Shown here in pieces: positions 6,559 through 22,160 of a stretch of 24,842 nucleotides of DNA; positions within the stretch are counted from its first letter, which is position 1, and the number at the start of each line of letters is the position of its first letter. The translations under genes were made by a program, and so were the position numbers. Origin of the DNA: a virus. The stretch is from IMG/VR virus record IMGVR_UViG_3300044821_000018, positions 1 through 24,842 of that record; one strand, 5' to 3'. The notes under the pieces were generated by a model. It saw only the letters and a list, made by a program, of their open reading frames with translations, did not search any database and was not told the DNA's origin.

Positions 6559-8898
6559 TTATAGCCAGCCGAGCGCGTCGCTCGATCCTGTGTCTGCCGC
6601 CGCCGAGCCCCAGTTGCTGGGGTCGTTGAAGTCGGTGGGGTCGTTCACGTACGTGCTGCCGGAGTCCGTCCAGCCGCCCGTGTAGTTCGAGCTGCCGCCG
6701 AGCTCAGCGCCGTTGGTGATCGAGCTGCCGCCGCCGCCGAACAAACTCTTGAGCCCGGACCCGGCCTGGCTGAGCAGGCTCTGGGCACCGGTGGTTTTCT
6801 TGCCGGCGTTGTCGCGCGCGTAGCCCATCCCGATGAGCCCCATCATCTCCATCAGGGAGTTGGTGAGCTGGGTGTTGCCCTGGATCTGCAACTGGATCGC
6901 GTCCTGGATCGGGCCATAGCCGGCGGTCGCCAGCGAGATCGCGTTCGAGAACGACTGCTGAATGGCGGTGACGCCGGTCTGCCACCCGGCCTGGATGTCC
7001 TTGTAACCCATGTTCTGGGTGTCCTCGCCGAGCGTGTACGCATTCTCTCCCGTGGACAAATTCTGCTGCATCAGATTGCCCTTGGCCATGTCGTACTGCT
7101 GGTCGATCTGCGCCTTGACCTGCGCCAGCGTGGACGAATCGGCCTGGGCACCGAGCGACTGGACGGCCTGCTGATACGCCGCCGCCTTTTGTTGGTCGAG
7201 CTCCGCCTGCTGCCACTGCGGGAGCGTCCCGGACTGGAACTGCTGGAACGCCGTGTTCGCAATGTTGAGCAGCGGACCGGCCTGGCCGACCAGCGTATTG
7301 CCCTGACTGAGCTGCGAATTCTGGAGGTTCTGGGTCTGCGGGTTCAGGAACCCGGTCTGCGCCGCGGTGAGCTCCCCCATGCCGGCGTTGACGAGCGGCT
7401 GGCCGACCGCATTGAGCTGACCGGCCATCGCGTTGTTCTGGTTCTTCTGCTGGTTGGCGCCCCACATCGCCGCGCCGAGCTCTGTCAGCGGGACGCCGAT
7501 TCCGCCCGATCCGAACAACGAGTTGAGCAGGCTCGGGTCCGCCGGATTGGCGCTCGAGGGGTCGCCGGGCGTGACGGTGGTCGGCCCGCCGTTGACCGAC
7601 GCGCCGCCCGGGCCGGTTGCTCCCACGGGAGCCGGCGAGCCGCCCTGAGCGGTCCACGGGTTCTGTGAAACCTGAGCCTGAGGCATGGTCGATCCCTGTG
7701 GGGCCAAAGCCCCGGCTGTGAGCGTACCGGCGACGCTACCTGCGACGCCAGATCCTGTTAAGTCGCCGACACCCCCGCCCACGCCGCCGCTGACGGCCCC
7801 CAGCAGGGGGTTCCCGCCCCTGATGGCCGACGTACCGGCCCCCTGGACAGCCCCGCCAATGGCGTCTCCGGCGAGCTTGGGAGCCCCCTGGTCCTGGAGG
7901 TAATTCGAGATCACGTTCTTGGGCAGGTACCGCGACAGGCCCTGGCTGGGCACGTTCGCGTGCGGCATTTGTTGAGGCGCAATGCTCGGGTTGTCGAGCG
8001 CGCTCGAGCTCGGGAGCGCCGCCGCGGACCCGGCGATGCTGGCCGCGCCCAGCGCGTCGCCCGCCGTCAGCCCGCCGCCGCCGGCCCCGGCCGTGACCGT
8101 CACGTCGCCTAGCGTGCCGGCCACGTCGGTCGACAGCGAACCGCCGAGGGTGCCGCCGGCCACGTTCTCGGCGGTCAGGGACCCTGTGCCGTACGACAGG
8201 CTGGCGTCAGTGACCGGCGCCACACCGCCGGCCGTTTCGCCCGCCGCGCCGGCGGCGCCCGCGGCGCCCGCGTAGCCGATGGCCGCCGCGCCGCCGATGA
8301 CCCCGAGCGCCGCGACGGCGGGCAGGGCGTTGTCCCAGGTCGAATTTCCCTGAACTTCCCCGAAGATGCTCGACAAGTCCGGCACGTTGGCCGCGAGTCC
8401 GGACACCCCGTTGATGGCGCCCTTGCCGCCGCCCGAGCTCTGCTTGAAGTCGCCGTTGCCGGCGAGCTGCTGCGAGAGCGTCTTTTGGGGCGTCAGGCCG
8501 AACTGGTTCTCCGCCGTCAGCATGTTGCTCGACTCGGAGATCGCGTTCTGGGTCCGCTGCGACAGGTTGTCGTTCTGGGACCAGACCTCGGTGCCGATGC
8601 CCGCGTCGCCGTGCGCGGTCGTGTCTTTCTGGCCGGTCAGCTTCGACTCGTACGGCGCGAACGCCTGGATGAACGCGCCGTACTTCGCCTGCGGGATACC
8701 GTTAGGACCGGCCAGCTTCGCGAGCGAGGTCGGATCCGTGAGCAGCGACATCTGGCCGCTCGAGTCGGCCAGCCGGAACGCGCCCGCGTAGTCGCCCGCC
8801 TGGATGAGCTGCGACAGTTGCGCGGAGATGTCCGCGCCGCCCGTCGATTGCCCGGGGGTCAGCGACGGATTCAGAAATCCTGAGTCCCAACTGTTCAC
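6559..8898 (-). CDS. Large Gly/Ala-rich virion protein, probable ejection protein
   Basis: Two in-frame GTG codons could start this gene, at 8955 and 8898. The second is preferred because it overlaps the upstream stop as GTGA, the dominant junction type here, giving 779 residues. Approximate regions are: a polar N-terminal part, a Gly/Ala-rich hydrophobic stretch (IGGAAAIGYAGAAGAAGAAG), long Gly/Pro/Ser-rich linkers, a Gln-rich helical section (QWQQAELDQQKAAAYQQ), and a Gly/Ser/Asn tail ending ALGWL. This mosaic of membrane-active-looking and helical segments is typical of podovirus internal or ejection proteins. It forms a set with the next two large genes. No catalytic motif was recognised. 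Confidence 0.77.
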   Translation of the reverse strand: MNSWDSGFLNPSLTPGQSTGGADISAQLSQLIQAGDYAGAFRLADSSGQMSLLTDPTSLAKLAGPNGIPQAKYGAFIQAFAPYESKLTGQKDTTAHGDAGIGTEVWSQNDNLSQRTQNAISESSNMLTAENQFGLTPQKTLSQQLAGNGDFKQSSGGGKGAINGVSGLAANVPDLSSIFGEVQGNSTWDNALPAVAALGVIGGAAAIGYAGAAGAAGAAGETAGGVAPVTDASLSYGTGSLTAENVAGGTLGGSLSTDVAGTLGDVTVTAGAGGGGLTAGDALGAASIAGSAAALPSSSALDNPSIAPQQMPHANVPSQGLSRYLPKNVISNYLQDQGAPKLAGDAIGGAVQGAGTSAIRGGNPLLGAVSGGVGGGVGDLTGSGVAGSVAGTLTAGALAPQGSTMPQAQVSQNPWTAQGGSPAPVGATGPGGASVNGGPTTVTPGDPSSANPADPSLLNSLFGSGGIGVPLTELGAAMWGANQQKNQNNAMAGQLNAVGQPLVNAGMGELTAAQTGFLNPQTQNLQNSQLSQGNTLVGQAGPLLNIANTAFQQFQSGTLPQWQQAELDQQKAAAYQQAVQSLGAQADSSTLAQVKAQIDQQYDMAKGNLMQQNLSTGENAYTLGEDTQNMGYKDIQAGWQTGVTAIQQSFSNAISLATAGYGPIQDAIQLQIQGNTQLTNSLMEMMGLIGMGYARDNAGKKTTGAQSLLSQAGSGLKSLFGGGGSSITNGAELGGSSNYTGGWTDSGSTYVNDPTDFNDPSNWGSAAADTGSSDALGWL

Positions 8899-15202: not shown

Positions 15203-16213
15203 TCAGATCGTGACGGGCAGGATGTTGGTGATCTTCACCGCCGTCTTGGGCTTCGTCAGCACCAGCTCGGCGATGGTCAGCACCGCGCCGATGTAGCCGA
15301 GCTGATAGTTGCTCAGCAGCGACTCGAAGCCAGTGAATGCGAACGCGGCCTGCTCGTGAACGTACAGGTTCACGTAGTTCGTGTTCAGCAGGTACATCGT
15401 GCCTTCCGGGCAGTACGGATCGGCGTAGACCGGCACACCGGCCACGTCGAGCGCGCGGAACGCGGAGCGCGGGCGGTCGGCGTCGCTGTCGAAGCCCTTG
15501 CCCGGCTGGATCTGGAGCGACTCGATGCCCACGAAGTCGTTCGCGAGGCCGAGCCAGGTGCCGATTCCGCAGACACCGAACGTCGGCATCTCGGAGCCGT
15601 ACTTCTGGCAGCCCGCGATGTACTGGAGGGCGAGCTTGCGGGTCAGGTTGACGCCGCCGGCGTTGTACAGCTTCGACTGCCACCAGGGGTAGGCGGTGCG
15701 GTTGATGTTGCCGTACGTCACGAGGTTCGTGCCGTCGTCCACCGCGCCGTTCAGTCCGACCAACTGCTGGTTGTTAGAGACGTTGTTGTACAGCGCGTTC
15801 GAGAACGCATCCACCATCGAGTTCGTCGCATCGTTCATGCGCGCTTCGATCAGCGGGATGATCGCGTGGTCCATCTGGACCGCGCCTTCCATTCCGAGGA
15901 ACGGGATCGGCGTGACGATGGCCTTCAGGTTGAACTCACCCAGGAACGCGCCCTGCTGGGCCTGCGGCTGGTTGAACGAACCGGAGTAGTCCGTCCACTG
16001 CGAGTTCACGAACGGCTGGCCCTGGACCGGGACCGAGACGCTCGAGACGCCGCCGGAAGCGGTCTGCGCGTTCGCGAGCAGCGCGGCGATCAGCGGGCTC
16101 GCCTGGTAGATCTGCACGACCATCTTGGGGATGAACGCGCGCCGCGTGACGTACGTGAGTTCGTTCGCGATGGGGCCGGCGGCCGGGATGATTCCTGCGC
16201 CAAAAACGGGCAT
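15203..16213 (-). CDS. Major capsid protein, HK97-fold type
   Basis: The 336-residue protein starts at ATG 16213 with an AGGAGCTAG ribosome binding site. Its length and its order after portal and scaffold-like genes fit a major capsid protein. The N-terminal part includes YVTRRAFIPKMVVQIYQASPL, a stretch of the type found at the start of many HK97-fold capsid proteins. The helical segment with MNDATNSMVDAFSNALYNN follows. The C-terminal half has YLLNTNYVNLYVHEQAAF, typical of the final beta strands, before a Lys-rich end. It self-assembles with the scaffold protein into the procapsid. The precise lineage cannot be given without a profile search. Confidence 0.85.
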   Translation of the reverse strand: MPVFGAGIIPAAGPIANELTYVTRRAFIPKMVVQIYQASPLIAALLANAQTASGGVSSVSVPVQGQPFVNSQWTDYSGSFNQPQAQQGAFLGEFNLKAIVTPIPFLGMEGAVQMDHAIIPLIEARMNDATNSMVDAFSNALYNNVSNNQQLVGLNGAVDDGTNLVTYGNINRTAYPWWQSKLYNAGGVNLTRKLALQYIAGCQKYGSEMPTFGVCGIGTWLGLANDFVGIESLQIQPGKGFDSDADRPRSAFRALDVAGVPVYADPYCPEGTMYLLNTNYVNLYVHEQAAFAFTGFESLLSNYQLGYIGAVLTIAELVLTKPKTAVKITNILPVTI

Positions 16214-16267: not shown

Positions 16268-16774
16268 TTACCCAGCTCTGCGTTTCGAGATCAGTTCGTT
16301 GACGGCCTCGAAGGCGGTCGTCTTGGCGAATTTGTTGCGATCCGCCCAGAGGTCCTTCGTGTCCGGCATCTGCATCGGCGTCATCGTGTGCGGCGTCGAA
16401 GGCGCGAGTTTGTTCTGCGCCGTCAGGTACTTGATCGCCGTGTCGTAGTTGCCGATGTTCTCATCGACCATCGCCTTCTCGACCTTGTCCGGATCGAGGC
16501 CGGCTTCGCGAATCTTCGCGTGGGCCTCGGAGCGGCGAGTCGCCTGGATACCGTCGAGACGCTCCTTGCGCTCGGCCGCCAGCTTTTCCTCGAACTCGAT
16601 CTTCTGCTTGTTCAAGGCTTCCTCGAGGTCCAAGTCCGGCGCGTTCATCGTCGGGTTCTTGGCCTTGGCCGCGCGCCGCAGCGTCTTTTCGACATCAGGG
16701 TTTCCCTTGACGAACGAATAGAGGTCGGCGGCGGCCTTCTGCTGTTCCGGAGTCATTTCTTCGAGCGATGGCAT
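16268..16774 (-). CDS. Probable scaffolding protein
   Basis: The 168-residue protein starts at ATG 16774 with an AGGGGAG ribosome binding site. It is almost wholly helical and charged. An N-terminal part (MTPEQQKAAADLYSFVKG) is followed by a long coiled-coil segment with NKQKIEFEEKLAAERKERL and then a variable Pro/Met-rich tail. Helical, charged proteins of this size placed just before the major capsid gene are commonly scaffolding proteins, which direct procapsid assembly and then exit. It could instead be a head-associated protein of unknown role. No protease motif is visible. Confidence 0.7.
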   Translation of the reverse strand: MPSLEEMTPEQQKAAADLYSFVKGNPDVEKTLRRAAKAKNPTMNAPDLDLEEALNKQKIEFEEKLAAERKERLDGIQATRRSEAHAKIREAGLDPDKVEKAMVDENIGNYDTAIKYLTAQNKLAPSTPHTMTPMQMPDTKDLWADRNKFAKTTAFEAVNELISKRRAG

Positions 16775-17035: not shown

Positions 17036-17437
17036 TCACATTGGAGTCGGCATTGGAGACGGGCCGGCCGGCGCCGGGAGACCCGGCGGCGGTTTGCCGG
17101 GGCCGGCGAGCCCCGAGACTGCCTGCATGATTTCTGCGGGCATGAGTTCTTTGTCCTGACCCTCGGTCTCGCCGAACGCCTTCGTCAGCGCGGCGATGGC
17201 CTTCATGATCGCCTTGCCGTGTTCCTCGGTGGGCGCGAAGGTCTGGAGCGACTGGGTCAGCTTTTTGATGCACACCTGAACGTCGGCGCGCGCGCCGGCC
17301 AGGTTCCCCTCTTTCGGAGCGGGAGTCATCATCCCCGCGCCGCCAGGACCGGGCGCTTTCGGAGGACCACCACCGCCACCCGGTTGCGGACCTTTCTGTC
17401 CGCCGAGGGCTTGCATGATCTGTGGGGGAACACTCAT
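17036..17437 (-). CDS. Gly/Pro-rich hypothetical head-module protein
   Basis: The 133-residue ORF starts at ATG 17437. It has a short helical start (MSVPPQIMQALGG), a Gly/Pro-rich linker, a helical middle (about residues 50-95, including VCIKKLTQSLQTF) and a Pro-rich end. It is the first gene after the terminator and candidate promoter. No clear ribosome binding site precedes the ATG, and the predicted transcript would start almost at the ATG, so leaderless translation is possible. No known domain was recognised. It may be a minor head or assembly protein given its position between portal and scaffold genes. Confidence 0.66.
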   Translation of the reverse strand: MSVPPQIMQALGGQKGPQPGGGGGPPKAPGPGGAGMMTPAPKEGNLAGARADVQVCIKKLTQSLQTFAPTEEHGKAIMKAIAALTKAFGETEGQDKELMPAEIMQAVSGLAGPGKPPPGLPAPAGPSPMPTPM

Positions 17438-17445
17438 GGCGGCGA

Positions 17446-17475
17446 GTTCTACCGCCCGCCGAATTTCAAAGTCAA
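17446..17475 (-). promoter_or_regulatory. Candidate sigma70-type promoter for head operon
   Basis: On the minus strand TTGACT (17475-17470) is followed after 18 nt by TAGAAC (17451-17446). The -35 element is close to consensus; the -10 element is only moderate. The site lies directly downstream of the terminator and before the first head-module gene, where a new transcript would be expected. The expected start of transcription falls near 17439, next to the ATG at 17437. It is a weak to moderate prediction by eye. Confidence 0.35.
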
Positions 17476-17487
17476 CAATTCACAAAC

Positions 17488-17517
17488 GAAAAAGCCGCCG
17501 GGCTTCCGCTCGGCGGC
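17488..17517 (-). terminator. Rho-independent terminator
   Basis: On the minus strand GCCGCCG (17517-17511) and CGGCGGC (17500-17494) form a 7-bp G/C-only stem around a 10-nt loop, followed directly by TTTTT (17493-17489). It lies after the portal gene and two micro-ORFs and before the head-module genes, so it would end the terminase-portal transcript. The stem plus T-run is a standard intrinsic terminator. Confidence 0.78.
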
Positions 17518-17567: not shown

Positions 17568-17606
17568 TCACTTCCGCTTGTGACGACGCTTGCCGCGCTT
17601 GGCCAT
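17568..17606 (-). CDS. Micro-ORF, 12-residue basic peptide
   Basis: ATG at 17606-17604 and TGA at 17570-17568 encode MAKRGKRRHKRK: nine of 12 residues are Lys, Arg or His. A good AGGAG ribosome binding site (17617-17613) lies 6 nt upstream of the ATG, directly after a small GGTTG/CAACC hairpin (17618-17633). The ORF is the last before the terminator. The strong binding site and its similarity to the other micro-ORF nearby argue against chance. It could be a nucleic-acid-binding microprotein or a leader peptide; its expression is unproven. Confidence 0.5.
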   Translation of the reverse strand: MAKRGKRRHKRK

Positions 17607-17646
17607 GCTGCTCTCCTGGTTGATCGAGCAACCCCCTAACGAATTC

Positions 17647-17691
17647 TCAGCGACGCATCTTCCGCTTGCCGCTGCGCTTACCTCTCGACAC
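17647..17691 (-). CDS. Micro-ORF, 14-residue basic peptide
   Basis: GTG at 17691-17689 and TGA at 17649-17647 encode MSRGKRSGKRKMRR, in which eight of 14 residues are Lys or Arg. Directly upstream is AAGGGGGTGATCC (17704-17692), which differs by one base from a 13-nt perfect complement of the usual bacterial 16S rRNA 3' end. It overlaps the end of the portal gene, so translation could be coupled. Both this and the next micro-ORF share an RGKR motif. A protamine-like, RNA-binding or regulatory role is conceivable but not shown. Confidence 0.5.
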   Translation of the reverse strand: MSRGKRSGKRKMRR

Positions 17692-17694
17692 GGA

Positions 17695-19356
17695 TCACCC
17701 CCTTATGGGTGTCACTTTGCCACCGGGATGTGCTTTGGCCTGACCGGCGGCAATCGCTGCGTTCTGCTGCTGCTGCTGCTCGGCCTCTTTGGCCTCCATC
17801 GCTTCCAGCCTGAGTTTTAGCAACTCCTTCATCGGCAAGTCAAGGAAATCAATGAGCGTGCGTCGGTCGATGACCTTGAGCTTCAGCAGGTCGAATCCGA
17901 GCGCGCGCTGATCCTCCTGGAAGATCGGGCTGTTCGAGTGCGCGTCCACCTTCACGGTGTACTTGTCGGTGAACTGGTCGGCCACGAACACGACGCCCTT
18001 GTCGTCGCGCAGCTTCGACTTGTCGTACGCCTGCTTGAGCTGCATGAACAGCGTCGCGAGTTTCTCGAGCTGATCTTCGATGACGAGCGCGCGCTTCTTG
18101 GCGCGGCTCGAGCCAAGTCGCGCGAGGTTGGCCGCGTGGCCCTGCGAGCGAACGCCCTGCTCGCCCTTGCCCTGGATGACGTTGGTGATGCCGGACATTT
18201 CCTCGAACTGCGCGTCGATCTCGCGGACCTCTTTGTAGAGATCCTCGGGGATGTTCGGCGCGAGGTTGTCGAGCTTGGCTCCCGGCATGTCCGCGGCGAT
18301 GACGCCCGAGGGAGAGTCGAGCGTGTCGGCGATCTCGGAGATGTCGCCCTGGAATCCGGATCCGAACTTGGGTGGGCGGGCCTGCAAATTAAGCATGTGC
18401 CGGATTTGTTCGATTCGTTCGTTGCGCATCCGCTGAAGCGGAATGAGCTTGTCGACTTCCGAGTATCCCCAGAAGTAATCGAAGCTCGGGTTCGGGCAAA
18501 TCTGGATGAACGGGCTCTCGTCCTTGATGAACAGGTCCTCGATGGGACGGTCGAAGATCCAGATTCCCGGGTTGGCGATGGTCACTACCCGGAAGTCTGC
18601 GATCTCGTCGTCGAACACGTAGAGCTCGAACATCTGGATGACATCTTCGGAGACCTGCGGCTTGTAGCGCATCGGGCTCGTCAGGTCGAAGTTGACGTTG
18701 CCGACGACGTTAGGGCTCGAGGCGCTCGTGACGATCCGGTCGACACCGGCGGCGCTGTCGGACGGTGCCGGCTTCGGCGTGCCGATGACGTTCTCGAGGA
18801 TCGCCGCCATGCGCGGATGCGGGATCAGCGACAGGTCGTACTCGAGCTGCGACTTGGTGATGTAGTAGCTTTGGACGAACGCCTCCTGGGACCAGAGGCC
18901 GTGAATGTCCTCGCGCAGCACCCCGATGTCGTGCGGCTCGACCACGTACGGCTCGATGCGCCCGCGGTTGACGCGCAGCTTGATGAACGTGCAGCCGTAG
19001 ACGTGCGCCCACAGCAGCGCCATCCCGAACACCATGTCGGTGTTGGACAAATGCCAGTCGTCGTTCAGTGACTGCATCAGCGCGTGAAGCTGCGTCTTGT
19101 GCAGGTCGCTCGCGCTCGGCGACAGGTCAATCGAAAACCGCGTCGTCTCGCTCGAGTACATCAGCGCGTTCAACTGCTCGAGGTGCGGGTAGATCTTGTT
19201 GATGATGTTGTCGGTGGCGGTCGGTCCGTCGCCAAACAGGAAGAACGAGCGCCACAGCTCGTAGAGCTTCTTGCGCCCGTCCCGACTCGAGTTGCACTTC
19301 GCAACCAGGTCGAGATAGAAGTTCATTCGCGCGTCACGGTCGGCGGGGATCTTCAT
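17695..19356 (-). CDS. Portal protein
   Basis: The 553-residue protein starts at ATG 19356, overlapping the upstream stop as ATGA. Its length and place directly after the terminase genes fit a podovirus portal, the dodecameric ring through which DNA enters and leaves the head. Features in order: an N-terminal helical part (FYLDLVAKCNSSRDGRKKLY), a beta-rich wing region (RIEPYVVEPHDIGVLRED), a PFIQICPNPSFDYFWGYSEV segment before long helices (PLQRMRNERIEQIRHMLNL), and the VIQGKGEQGVRSQG loop region. The tail is Gln-rich with a CAG-type repeat (EAEQQQQQ). The long helix pair and NPSF-type segment match portal patterns well; the exact family is uncertain. Confidence 0.85.
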   Translation of the reverse strand: MKIPADRDARMNFYLDLVAKCNSSRDGRKKLYELWRSFFLFGDGPTATDNIINKIYPHLEQLNALMYSSETTRFSIDLSPSASDLHKTQLHALMQSLNDDWHLSNTDMVFGMALLWAHVYGCTFIKLRVNRGRIEPYVVEPHDIGVLREDIHGLWSQEAFVQSYYITKSQLEYDLSLIPHPRMAAILENVIGTPKPAPSDSAAGVDRIVTSASSPNVVGNVNFDLTSPMRYKPQVSEDVIQMFELYVFDDEIADFRVVTIANPGIWIFDRPIEDLFIKDESPFIQICPNPSFDYFWGYSEVDKLIPLQRMRNERIEQIRHMLNLQARPPKFGSGFQGDISEIADTLDSPSGVIAADMPGAKLDNLAPNIPEDLYKEVREIDAQFEEMSGITNVIQGKGEQGVRSQGHAANLARLGSSRAKKRALVIEDQLEKLATLFMQLKQAYDKSKLRDDKGVVFVADQFTDKYTVKVDAHSNSPIFQEDQRALGFDLLKLKVIDRRTLIDFLDLPMKELLKLRLEAMEAKEAEQQQQQNAAIAAGQAKAHPGGKVTPIRG

Positions 19357-19818: not shown

Positions 19819-20307
19819 CTAGCATTTCTGGAATGGCGACAGCAACCGGGCGCGCCCTTCGGGGTCGTGTCGTGGCGCCAGGGAGGCGTCGGTACGCCGA
19901 AGCGAGATCTTGAGGCCCTTGGTCGTTATGCCGATGGTCCCGCGGTAGAACGGCGGGCACGGCAGCGGCTGCGGCGAGGCGGCGGGCCTGACCTCGTAGG
20001 CCGTCACGCGGCCGAGCCTGTTGCGCTTGATGACGCGCGGCTCGAACTCGCCGGCCAGCACGCGCTGAAGCGACTTCGTGAGCTGGCAGCGCACGCTGAA
20101 CCGGTACCTGGTCAGGTCGCCGCGGTTGAACGACCTCCTGAAGTCGTGCCAGTACGCCCTGTCAATCCGCATCGCCGTGAGCAACATCGCCGGGGATCCG
20201 CAGTACGGGCTCGATTCGTTCGTCGTGAGCCACAAATAGGCGTGCTGCAAATGCCTGTCGTTCCAGGCGTTCTCGTCATCGTCGCCGGGCTTCGTGCTCT
20301 GGGTCAT
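19819..20307 (-). CDS. Hypothetical protein between terminase and portal
   Basis: The 162-residue ORF starts at ATG 20307, overlapping the terminase stop as ATGA, which supports translation. The N-terminal half is mixed alpha/beta, with many aromatic residues (NDRHLQHAYLWLTTNES and YWHDFRRSFNRGDLTRYRF). The C-terminal half is basic and Pro-rich. No transmembrane segment or recognised domain was found. It may be a packaging or head-assembly accessory. Confidence 0.68.
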   Translation of the reverse strand: MTQSTKPGDDDENAWNDRHLQHAYLWLTTNESSPYCGSPAMLLTAMRIDRAYWHDFRRSFNRGDLTRYRFSVRCQLTKSLQRVLAGEFEPRVIKRNRLGRVTAYEVRPAASPQPLPCPPFYRGTIGITTKGLKISLRRTDASLAPRHDPEGRARLLSPFQKC

Positions 20308-22160
20308 GTACGCGACACCCTCCTGGGTTTGCCGGTGCGAACCGTGGACTGTCCCGCCTCAGATTTGTTGTACAGAATTCCCAATTCCTGCATGTACTTG
20401 CGCACCATTCGCTGGCCGACCACGGCGGGCGTGTTCTCGATGGAGTTCTCGAGCGCAAGCTGCTTCTCGTTCTTGTAGATGAGCCCCTGGCCCATCAGGC
20501 GCGGGCGCACCTGGTCGTTCCACGCAAGAATGGCAAGGCACGCCGCGATGACGCGGTCGTCTTTCTTGTGATCGGGAGCGGCGGGCGCCGAGCCCGCCTC
20601 GCGGGCGATGATCGCCATTTCCGCGACGAGCTCGCGCGAGACCGGAACACACATCTTGCGCTCCACGTAGTCGCGGTAGGTGTTCATCATCCGCTCTTTC
20701 ATCTGGAAGTTGGTCTGCGTGTGCAGGGCTCCCGGCGTGCCATAGATCGAGTCGTACTTGCGGTACAGGAAGTCGCGCATCGAGCCGAGCACGTCCTTGA
20801 GTACCGGGCGCGCCTGCGCCATGCCGAACACGCGCTCCTTGCGCATGTTCTGGATCTCGTTCAACACCGCGGCGCCGGGGCCGTTGACCTCGAGGTTGAA
20901 CGTGCAGGGGCCGTACGCGCCGCACAGGTACACGATGGCCCACGCGAACTGGCTGGTCGTGATCGAATAGTCGATGTACTCGGCAACCTGCTCGGCGTGA
21001 TCCGCCCACACTCGCCACACGCTGATACAAAACCCGTCCGCGTTCTCCGAGCTGCCGTACGCCGGATCCGCGCCGATGACGTAAAACCCGTGTTTTTCAG
21101 GGTTTTTCCACACCTTGAGTGTCGCGTTCTTGGCGTTCGACGGGACAATCTGCGTCTCGATGAAGTTGTCCTTGAACGTGAGCCGGAAATACTCCGGCGC
21201 CTTCACCTTCGCGACTTCCTGGTACAGCCGCGACAGCTCGACGGGATTGAAGAACTGGCTGCCGCTCGACTGGAACGCCTGCGTCTCGGTCCACGGATAT
21301 TCCTGAAGCCTCAGCGACTCGTCGGTTTGCTGCTCGGCGGCCAGCCAGCGCCACCAGGCGATTTGTTCGTCGACAATCTCGACGCCGTATAATTGTTTGA
21401 CTTCGCGGGACCACTCGCGCTCCTGCGCGGTCAGCCTGAAGTCGGAGCCTGCGTACACTTTGAACAGCGGCAGGTCGCGCGAGATCCGGTACATCTCGTT
21501 GGCCCACCACGACACGAAGATGCACTTGGTGCTCGCCGCCGACTGGGCTTCGTCCCACTGGTCATAGAACAAATTCTCGAAGCCGCGGGCCGTGCTTTCC
21601 CAGTTGTACAGCCGGTTTGGATTTCGCTGGGCGAGCGCGGCCTTCAGCGCGGCGAACGCTTCCCGGTCTCCCCAGCTCGACATCTCGGTGGCGTGCAGGA
21701 AGCTCGGCGAAGAGGAACGCCCAAGTGCGCCTTTACCGCTCTTTTTAGTTCCGGCAACACGGTAGAGAAGCTTTGTCCCGGTTCCAAGTACAAGCTGGTT
21801 TCGATTGTGGTCTTTGATTGGCCGCTTCCAATCGTCAGGTAGACCGGAGTAGTACATCTCGAGTTGAGACCTGAATTGGTCACGGGCGGTGTCCTCGTGT
21901 ACGACGAGCATGCCGGTCATGCCCCGGTTCCTGAACAACCAGAACAAATCGAGCGCGAGCATGATGGTCGAGATGCCGGCTTGTCGGCACTTCAGTGTGA
22001 CGAAGTCGTGGACCCCTTCCTCGAGGCCCTCGACAATTCGCTGGAGCACCCACTTCTGGGTACCGAGCAGGGAGTCACCCAGGCGGATGACCCCTCGCTC
22101 CTTGGAATCAATTCTCAGAGCTCGCGTGAACTCCAGGAATTGACCGAGTGGAAACTTCAC
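20304..22160 (-). CDS. terL: Terminase large subunit (DNA-packaging ATPase/nuclease)
   Basis: The 618-residue protein starts at GTG 22160, overlapping the upstream stop as GTGA. It packages phage DNA into the procapsid through the portal, using an N-terminal ATPase and a C-terminal nuclease. Visible motifs: CRQAGIST at 58-65 as the degenerate Walker A, FLHATEM at 154-160 with the probable catalytic Glu159 of a degenerate Walker B, and ESTARG at 188-193 as the coupling motif. The RNase H-like nuclease residues are Asp365 (VIGADPAYG), Glu424 (FNLEVNGPG) and Asp534/535 (KKDDRVI). Length and motif order fit a full large terminase. No small subunit was recognised nearby. Confidence 0.93.
   Translation of the reverse strand: MKFPLGQFLEFTRALRIDSKERGVIRLGDSLLGTQKWVLQRIVEGLEEGVHDFVTLKCRQAGISTIMLALDLFWLFRNRGMTGMLVVHEDTARDQFRSQLEMYYSGLPDDWKRPIKDHNRNQLVLGTGTKLLYRVAGTKKSGKGALGRSSSPSFLHATEMSSWGDREAFAALKAALAQRNPNRLYNWESTARGFENLFYDQWDEAQSAASTKCIFVSWWANEMYRISRDLPLFKVYAGSDFRLTAQEREWSREVKQLYGVEIVDEQIAWWRWLAAEQQTDESLRLQEYPWTETQAFQSSGSQFFNPVELSRLYQEVAKVKAPEYFRLTFKDNFIETQIVPSNAKNATLKVWKNPEKHGFYVIGADPAYGSSENADGFCISVWRVWADHAEQVAEYIDYSITTSQFAWAIVYLCGAYGPCTFNLEVNGPGAAVLNEIQNMRKERVFGMAQARPVLKDVLGSMRDFLYRKYDSIYGTPGALHTQTNFQMKERMMNTYRDYVERKMCVPVSRELVAEMAIIAREAGSAPAAPDHKKDDRVIAACLAILAWNDQVRPRLMGQGLIYKNEKQLALENSIENTPAVVGQRMVRKYMQELGILYNKSEAGQSTVRTGKPRRVSRT

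Follow-up and report, generated by a model that had tools for sequence, protein, structure and literature searches.

Do the two very short, highly basic open reading frames (ORFs) that follow the portal gene of a tailed phage encode proteins, and what would such peptides do? The two frames, here called micro-ORFs A and B, lie on the minus strand, like the head genes, of the IMG/VR virus record IMGVR_UViG_3300044821_000018, which was analysed over its whole length of 24,842 bases (the window). A preliminary description of this DNA had placed a GTG-initiated frame of 14 residues and an ATG-initiated frame of 12 residues behind strong ribosome binding sites. Both were present as placed, with the Shine-Dalgarno (SD) sequences expected from that description:

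17647 to 17691, minus strand: micro-ORF A (type A), GTG start at 17691, 14 codons, MSRGKRSGKRKMRR; frame and charge are kept in relatives.
17568 to 17606, minus strand: micro-ORF B (type B), ATG start at 17606, 12 codons, MAKRGKRRHKRK.
17692 to 17705, minus strand: SD sequence of A, TAAGGGGGTGATCC, which overlaps the portal stop codon.
17613 to 17617, minus strand: SD sequence of B, AGGAG, computed energy −7.4 kcal/mol.

The product of A reads M(V)SRGKRSGKRKMRR, 14 amino acids. Its ribosome site, TAAGGGGGTGATC, matches 12 of 13 positions of the complement of the usual 16S 3′ end, TAAGGAGGTGATC, from which the host 16S itself may differ, and the computed duplex energy with ACCUCCUUA was −12.6 kcal/mol.

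Searches of IMG/VR for capsid relatives found over 580, the best of which were retained for locus analysis; a portal search of IMG/VR with a single sequence gave no match, and searches with alignments did find relatives. Results showed that relatives with portals 27-51% identical carry, in the interval from portal to capsid, one to three SD-preceded, Lys/Arg-rich ORFs, mostly of 10-15 codons. Counted as distinct versions, the set comprises 319 nucleotide sequences and 209 peptides, of which a few are chance matches outside the interval, and many of its loci are closely related. Among 146 close loci that include the portal end, micro-ORFs were present in 132 (two in 92, three in 13, one in 27). 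Four of the 14 others are cut by the contig end, eight represent one lineage truly without micro-ORFs, and two loci counted there (L070 and L081) carry A in a form that is longer and less basic. Type B is kept more widely than type A. In a search with divergent capsids, a micro-ORF was found in 65 of about 70 loci with an uncut interval, at identities to the queries of at least 27% for the portal and at least 36% for the capsid.

Two GenBank phages, MW202825 and MW202753 (Manatee Spring), have a portal 49-51% and a major capsid protein (MCP) 65-67% identical to those of the window. In the same place they carry MYKKHKRSRKTRR and MARKARKTRKGRK, and MRKAYKKTRKTRR and MARAKRKGRKARK, respectively, each after an AGGAG-type site; the records leave these micro-ORFs unannotated and list plus-strand (antisense) ORFs across the region instead. 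The idea that both are translated genes which gene callers miss is therefore strongly supported, since in relatives the frame, the start, the ribosome site and the charge are all preserved; the frame-breaking changes that the preliminary description had proposed to look for in related phages gave the opposite outcome, with frames kept.

We then counted SD-preceded ORFs of 8-22 amino acids with at least 50% Lys plus Arg (K+R). The 66 kb of homologous intervals contained 237 of them versus 5 in the remaining 1,191 kb of the same strand, a density about 850 times higher, and the 1,258 kb of antisense strand contained none. Likewise, a scan of IMG/VR that was blind to neighbouring genes and required only an SD, an ATG and three xRK repeats returned free-standing ORFs almost all of which belong to the micro-ORF family.

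The peptides consist of 65% K+R, with A, G, S and T next commonest and almost no hydrophobic residues. Start and stop are kept in relatives, lengths vary by whole codons, and the ratio of nonsynonymous to synonymous polymorphism (pN/pS) was about 0.5, with an excess of third-position changes and synonymous sites near saturation. In 184 paired peptides, acidic residues were seen only in two (L006 and L012), for both of which the reading began at an alternative start farther upstream than the SD-proximal ATG; the wider peptide set has a few, near the N-terminus. A single base change turns Lys into Glu, yet acidic residues hardly occur. Where two peptides were at least 60% identical, K and R had replaced each other 430 times, mostly through two or three base changes, and D/E had never taken the place of K/R. 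Mean SD energies were −7.7 for A, −7.5 for B and −7.5 for the MCP gene, compared with −2.2 for the portal gene. Frame, start and product are thus kept among diverged relatives, as in a gene family, and on these comparative data it is near certain that A and B are real conserved protein-coding genes under selection as peptides. Because the peptides drift within K/R plus A/G/S/T, their sequences suggest an electrostatic mode of binding rather than a side-chain-specific one.

The position after the portal gene, to which the preliminary description had drawn attention, holds in the window and proved incidental. Twenty-seven divergent loci (L318-L359), which form one deep branch, have the portal on the strand opposite to the capsid genes. 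In 24 of them the micro-ORF shares the strand of the capsid genes and, usually preceded by a TTGACA-like site, sits between the start of the divergently oriented portal gene and nx (the gene that follows B in the window), ahead of the MCP gene. Because the capsid-strand position is kept in these 24 loci, the micro-ORF follows the capsid genes, to which it is tied. In two loci (L327 and L323) the first micro-ORF has a longer form, which by eye carries a non-basic N-terminal extension (MNALPFEISIDKRGRKMHRKGRK; MFNIETAIDKRGRKMSRKGRK). No micro-ORFs were found in Mx8, Mx9, BUCT555, ppBjS10J-1 or a TM7 phage, distant cultured phages whose capsid protein is related, and three capsid queries from other branches revealed no cultured phage of the group among 50,697 phage records. 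Capsid matches did occur in contigs of metagenome-assembled genomes assigned to betaproteobacteria, Balneolaceae and Alphaproteobacteria, although the binning of these contigs is uncertain.

The head genes around the micro-ORFs are these:

20304 to 22160, minus strand: terminase.
17695 to 19356, minus strand: portal gene (PHROG portal), upstream neighbour of A.
17036 to 17437, minus strand: nx, the next gene after B, a small Pro/Ala-rich head-block protein.
16268 to 16774, minus strand: probable scaffold, charged and likely helical, directly before the MCP gene.
15203 to 16213, minus strand: MCP (phrog_9953, E 4e-34).

With matches to terminase, portal and tailed-phage head protein families, the window virus is of the tailed-phage type. 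Most of the main relatives have an extra ORF of 45-60 amino acids between portal and A (about 10530-10684 in L002, 10541-10705 in L003), with a DQPR-type conserved motif and a basic C-terminus; it is absent from the window and persists where the micro-ORFs are lost. In the interval from portal to micro-ORF, another locus (L239) has a tRNA-Lys(CTT) gene (7412-7486), next to which an apparent antisense ORF by eye resembles a small DNA-binding protein.

What, then, might the peptides do? We propose, at a probability of about 0.5, that A and B are trans-acting nucleic-acid-binding peptides of the head module, and that their likeliest target is DNA that is being packaged or is already inside the head. 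Each micro-ORF would make a free polycation of 10-15 residues, here with a charge of about +8, that would act in trans by binding nucleic acid; many copies, translated at an MCP-like rate, could offset part of the charge of the DNA, help to condense it or coat the inner face of the capsid, much as the J peptide does in microviruses. Binding to DNA during or after packaging is suggested because the product would be a free polycation that is strongly initiated, tied to the capsid genes and not conserved in a sequence-specific way. We infer that A and B are translated in the infected cell, bind DNA and enter the virion. The DNA- or RNA-binding microproteins of the preliminary description thus remain the best fit, argued from charge and position only. 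A more far-reaching version, in which a family of 10-15 codon genes, near-universal within a large lineage of uncultured tailed phages, makes free protamine-like peptides that are packaged with double-stranded DNA (dsDNA), the second of them tuned by a new leader pseudoknot, is put forward only tentatively.

Several observations weigh against a packaged DNA binder. One sub-lineage (L023, L027 and kin) is without micro-ORFs, and a copy number of 0-3 means that they are not indispensable to every relative. By our estimate, the charge of one copy per capsid subunit would suffice to neutralise no more than a few percent of a genome of 35-40 kb. Finally, A and B keep a distinct consensus (A: Tyr2, ...KTRR; B: RKARKGRKARK), which hints at more specific roles.

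Other functions have to be considered in view of the signals between A and nx, which include the terminator that the preliminary description had reported just after the micro-ORFs:

17607 to 17646, minus strand: A-B spacer, with a GGGG motif that is invariant in the window's own lineage.
About 17489 to 17517, minus strand: terminator-like intrinsic hairpin 3′ of B, GCCGCCG...CGGCGGC followed by TTTTT.
17446 to 17475, minus strand: promoter-like TTGACT-18-TAGAAC, conserved within the lineage of the window and ending 8 nt ahead of nx's start codon.

The A-B spacer of the main relatives contains an H-type pseudoknot, with stem 1 AGGG/CCCT and stem 2 GGCTGCYT/ARGTGGCC. In alignment A4, made of L100 (6861-6900) and 47 other loci (48 distinct sequences), 93.1% of cells pair, and changes on both sides affect 8 of the 12 pairs and 48 cells, versus 9.9 ± 2.6 cells in shuffles (0 of 500 shuffles); both stems covary. 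Slid controls were all far lower; the pseudoknot was proposed from the same sequences, so that this control somewhat favours it, and the both-side changes are independent of that. The pseudoknot is retained in two loci where A is missing (L025 and L063), and in L219 a similar element and B come, by eye, directly after a promoter-like site. We did not find it in several lineages with both ORFs or in the window, where the spacer retains just the GGGG, and the Rfam 15 covariance models gave no family at the gathering score. We regard it as a new and separate candidate RNA element. In the region before B, RNAfold gave weak z-scores, which is expected if the structure is a pseudoknot because RNAfold cannot fold pseudoknots. 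Downstream of B, most loci have a stable hairpin (z < −1 in 50 of 61 and 15 of 17 loci, mean z −2.1 and −2.8). A third nano-ORF between A and B (MAAFPLK and similar, in some relatives) was considered and rejected: by eye its reading frame is not conserved, and its bases are those that make up the pseudoknot.

The promoter-like site of the window was found with a loose pattern and was not reported by a stricter scan; the loose pattern finds promoters between B and nx in 67 of 124 loci. A TAGAAC-type −10 box (17437-17451 in the window) stands 8 nt before the nx start codon, likewise in close relatives. Because this distance is so short, nx is probably translated from a leaderless or nearly leaderless mRNA.

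Since structured RNA lies nearby, the main rival to DNA binding in the head is that the arginine-rich peptides bind structured RNA of the phage itself, such as the pseudoknot before B, and control packaging or head transcripts as autogenous translational operators or N-like antiterminators do. The covarying pseudoknot, the stable hairpin after B and the separate consensus motifs of A and B agree with such a role; the lineages with both ORFs in which no pseudoknot was found, the window included, and the weak sequence specificity suggested by K/R drift do not, and we consider it unlikely. Lower still we place an action late in infection on a host target (ribosome, nucleoid, nuclease or membrane): polycations bind ribosomes, RNA and anionic surfaces, and the ribosome sites are strong, but the micro-ORFs are constantly linked to capsid genes, not to early genes or those for lysis, and there are almost no hydrophobic residues for membrane action.

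A cis-acting role, in which the act of translation and not its product would control the head genes farther downstream by way of RNA structure, attenuation or ribosomes slowed by the polybasic stretch, seems less probable again, and with it the leader peptides that the preliminary description had offered as an option lose ground. Divergent branches do have B as the first ORF after a promoter-like site, within a structured leader, with a hairpin and then nx and the MCP gene behind it, and by eye L344 has a terminator-like hairpin and T run directly after B. In the window, however, such a leader is unlikely because a terminator and a new promoter separate the micro-ORFs from nx; such an interruption of the transcript is not evident in some branches. 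Moreover, L219 has extra genes inserted after B, A lies a further 85-120 nt upstream, and codons vary freely with K-R exchange tolerated, so that in place of the run of codons for one amino acid, kept in identity, of an attenuator we found mixed, exchanging K/R and synonymous drift. Chance ORFs in a compositionally biased spacer, a notion that the very short frames and metagenomic contigs might invite, are ruled out for practical purposes by the 850-fold same-strand enrichment, the absence of antisense counterparts and a frame kept across very large divergence.

Conserved genes this short are almost never recognised, since they fall below the length cut-off of gene callers and cannot be scored in database searches. 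Here, comparative genomics shows such a gene at a fixed place in a large environmental phage group: it persists in hundreds of related uncultured tailed phages, overlooked by genome annotation and absent from two annotated records. Should the peptides prove to be part of the virion, autonomous micropeptides would be a component of tailed-phage heads, a class of head protein not yet looked for, which ordinary trypsin proteomics would miss because trypsin digests such peptides down to fragments of one to a few residues.

In searches of an open-access library we found nothing on such micro-ORFs in tailed phages, which is weak evidence of absence, and known systems offer partial parallels. The N protein of phage lambda is an early-gene product, longer and with a separate polymerase-binding part. 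The micro-ORF peptides resemble its arginine-rich stretch in length and in having structured phage RNA nearby, and differ from N in those other respects. The adenovirus core peptide mu (pX) and protamines are very short, arginine-rich, DNA-condensing polycations, and mu is released from its precursor by proteolytic cleavage. The likeness to them is one of size and composition, and the micro-ORFs, unlike mu, are free-standing genes. In phage T4, the gene 32 operator is a pseudoknot upstream of a ribosome site in the mRNA. The pseudoknot of the relatives is similarly placed to this operator (treated in passages of PMC535899 and PMC3014915), but has another sequence and was found in relatives, not in the window. 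The J/VP8 peptide of microviruses has been described as having an important part in DNA packaging, and sits on the capsid interior (PMC11281519). Like it, the micro-ORF peptides are short, Arg/Lys-rich products of a capsid gene block. We do not file them under J/VP8, because neither its hydrophobic or aromatic capsid-anchoring C-terminus nor a microvirus genome and capsid is present: the peptides, of 10-15 amino acids, end in RR or RK (KTRR, KARK, HKRK and similar) and belong to tailed dsDNA phages. By analogy, they may nevertheless work like J/VP8, to which they are unrelated.
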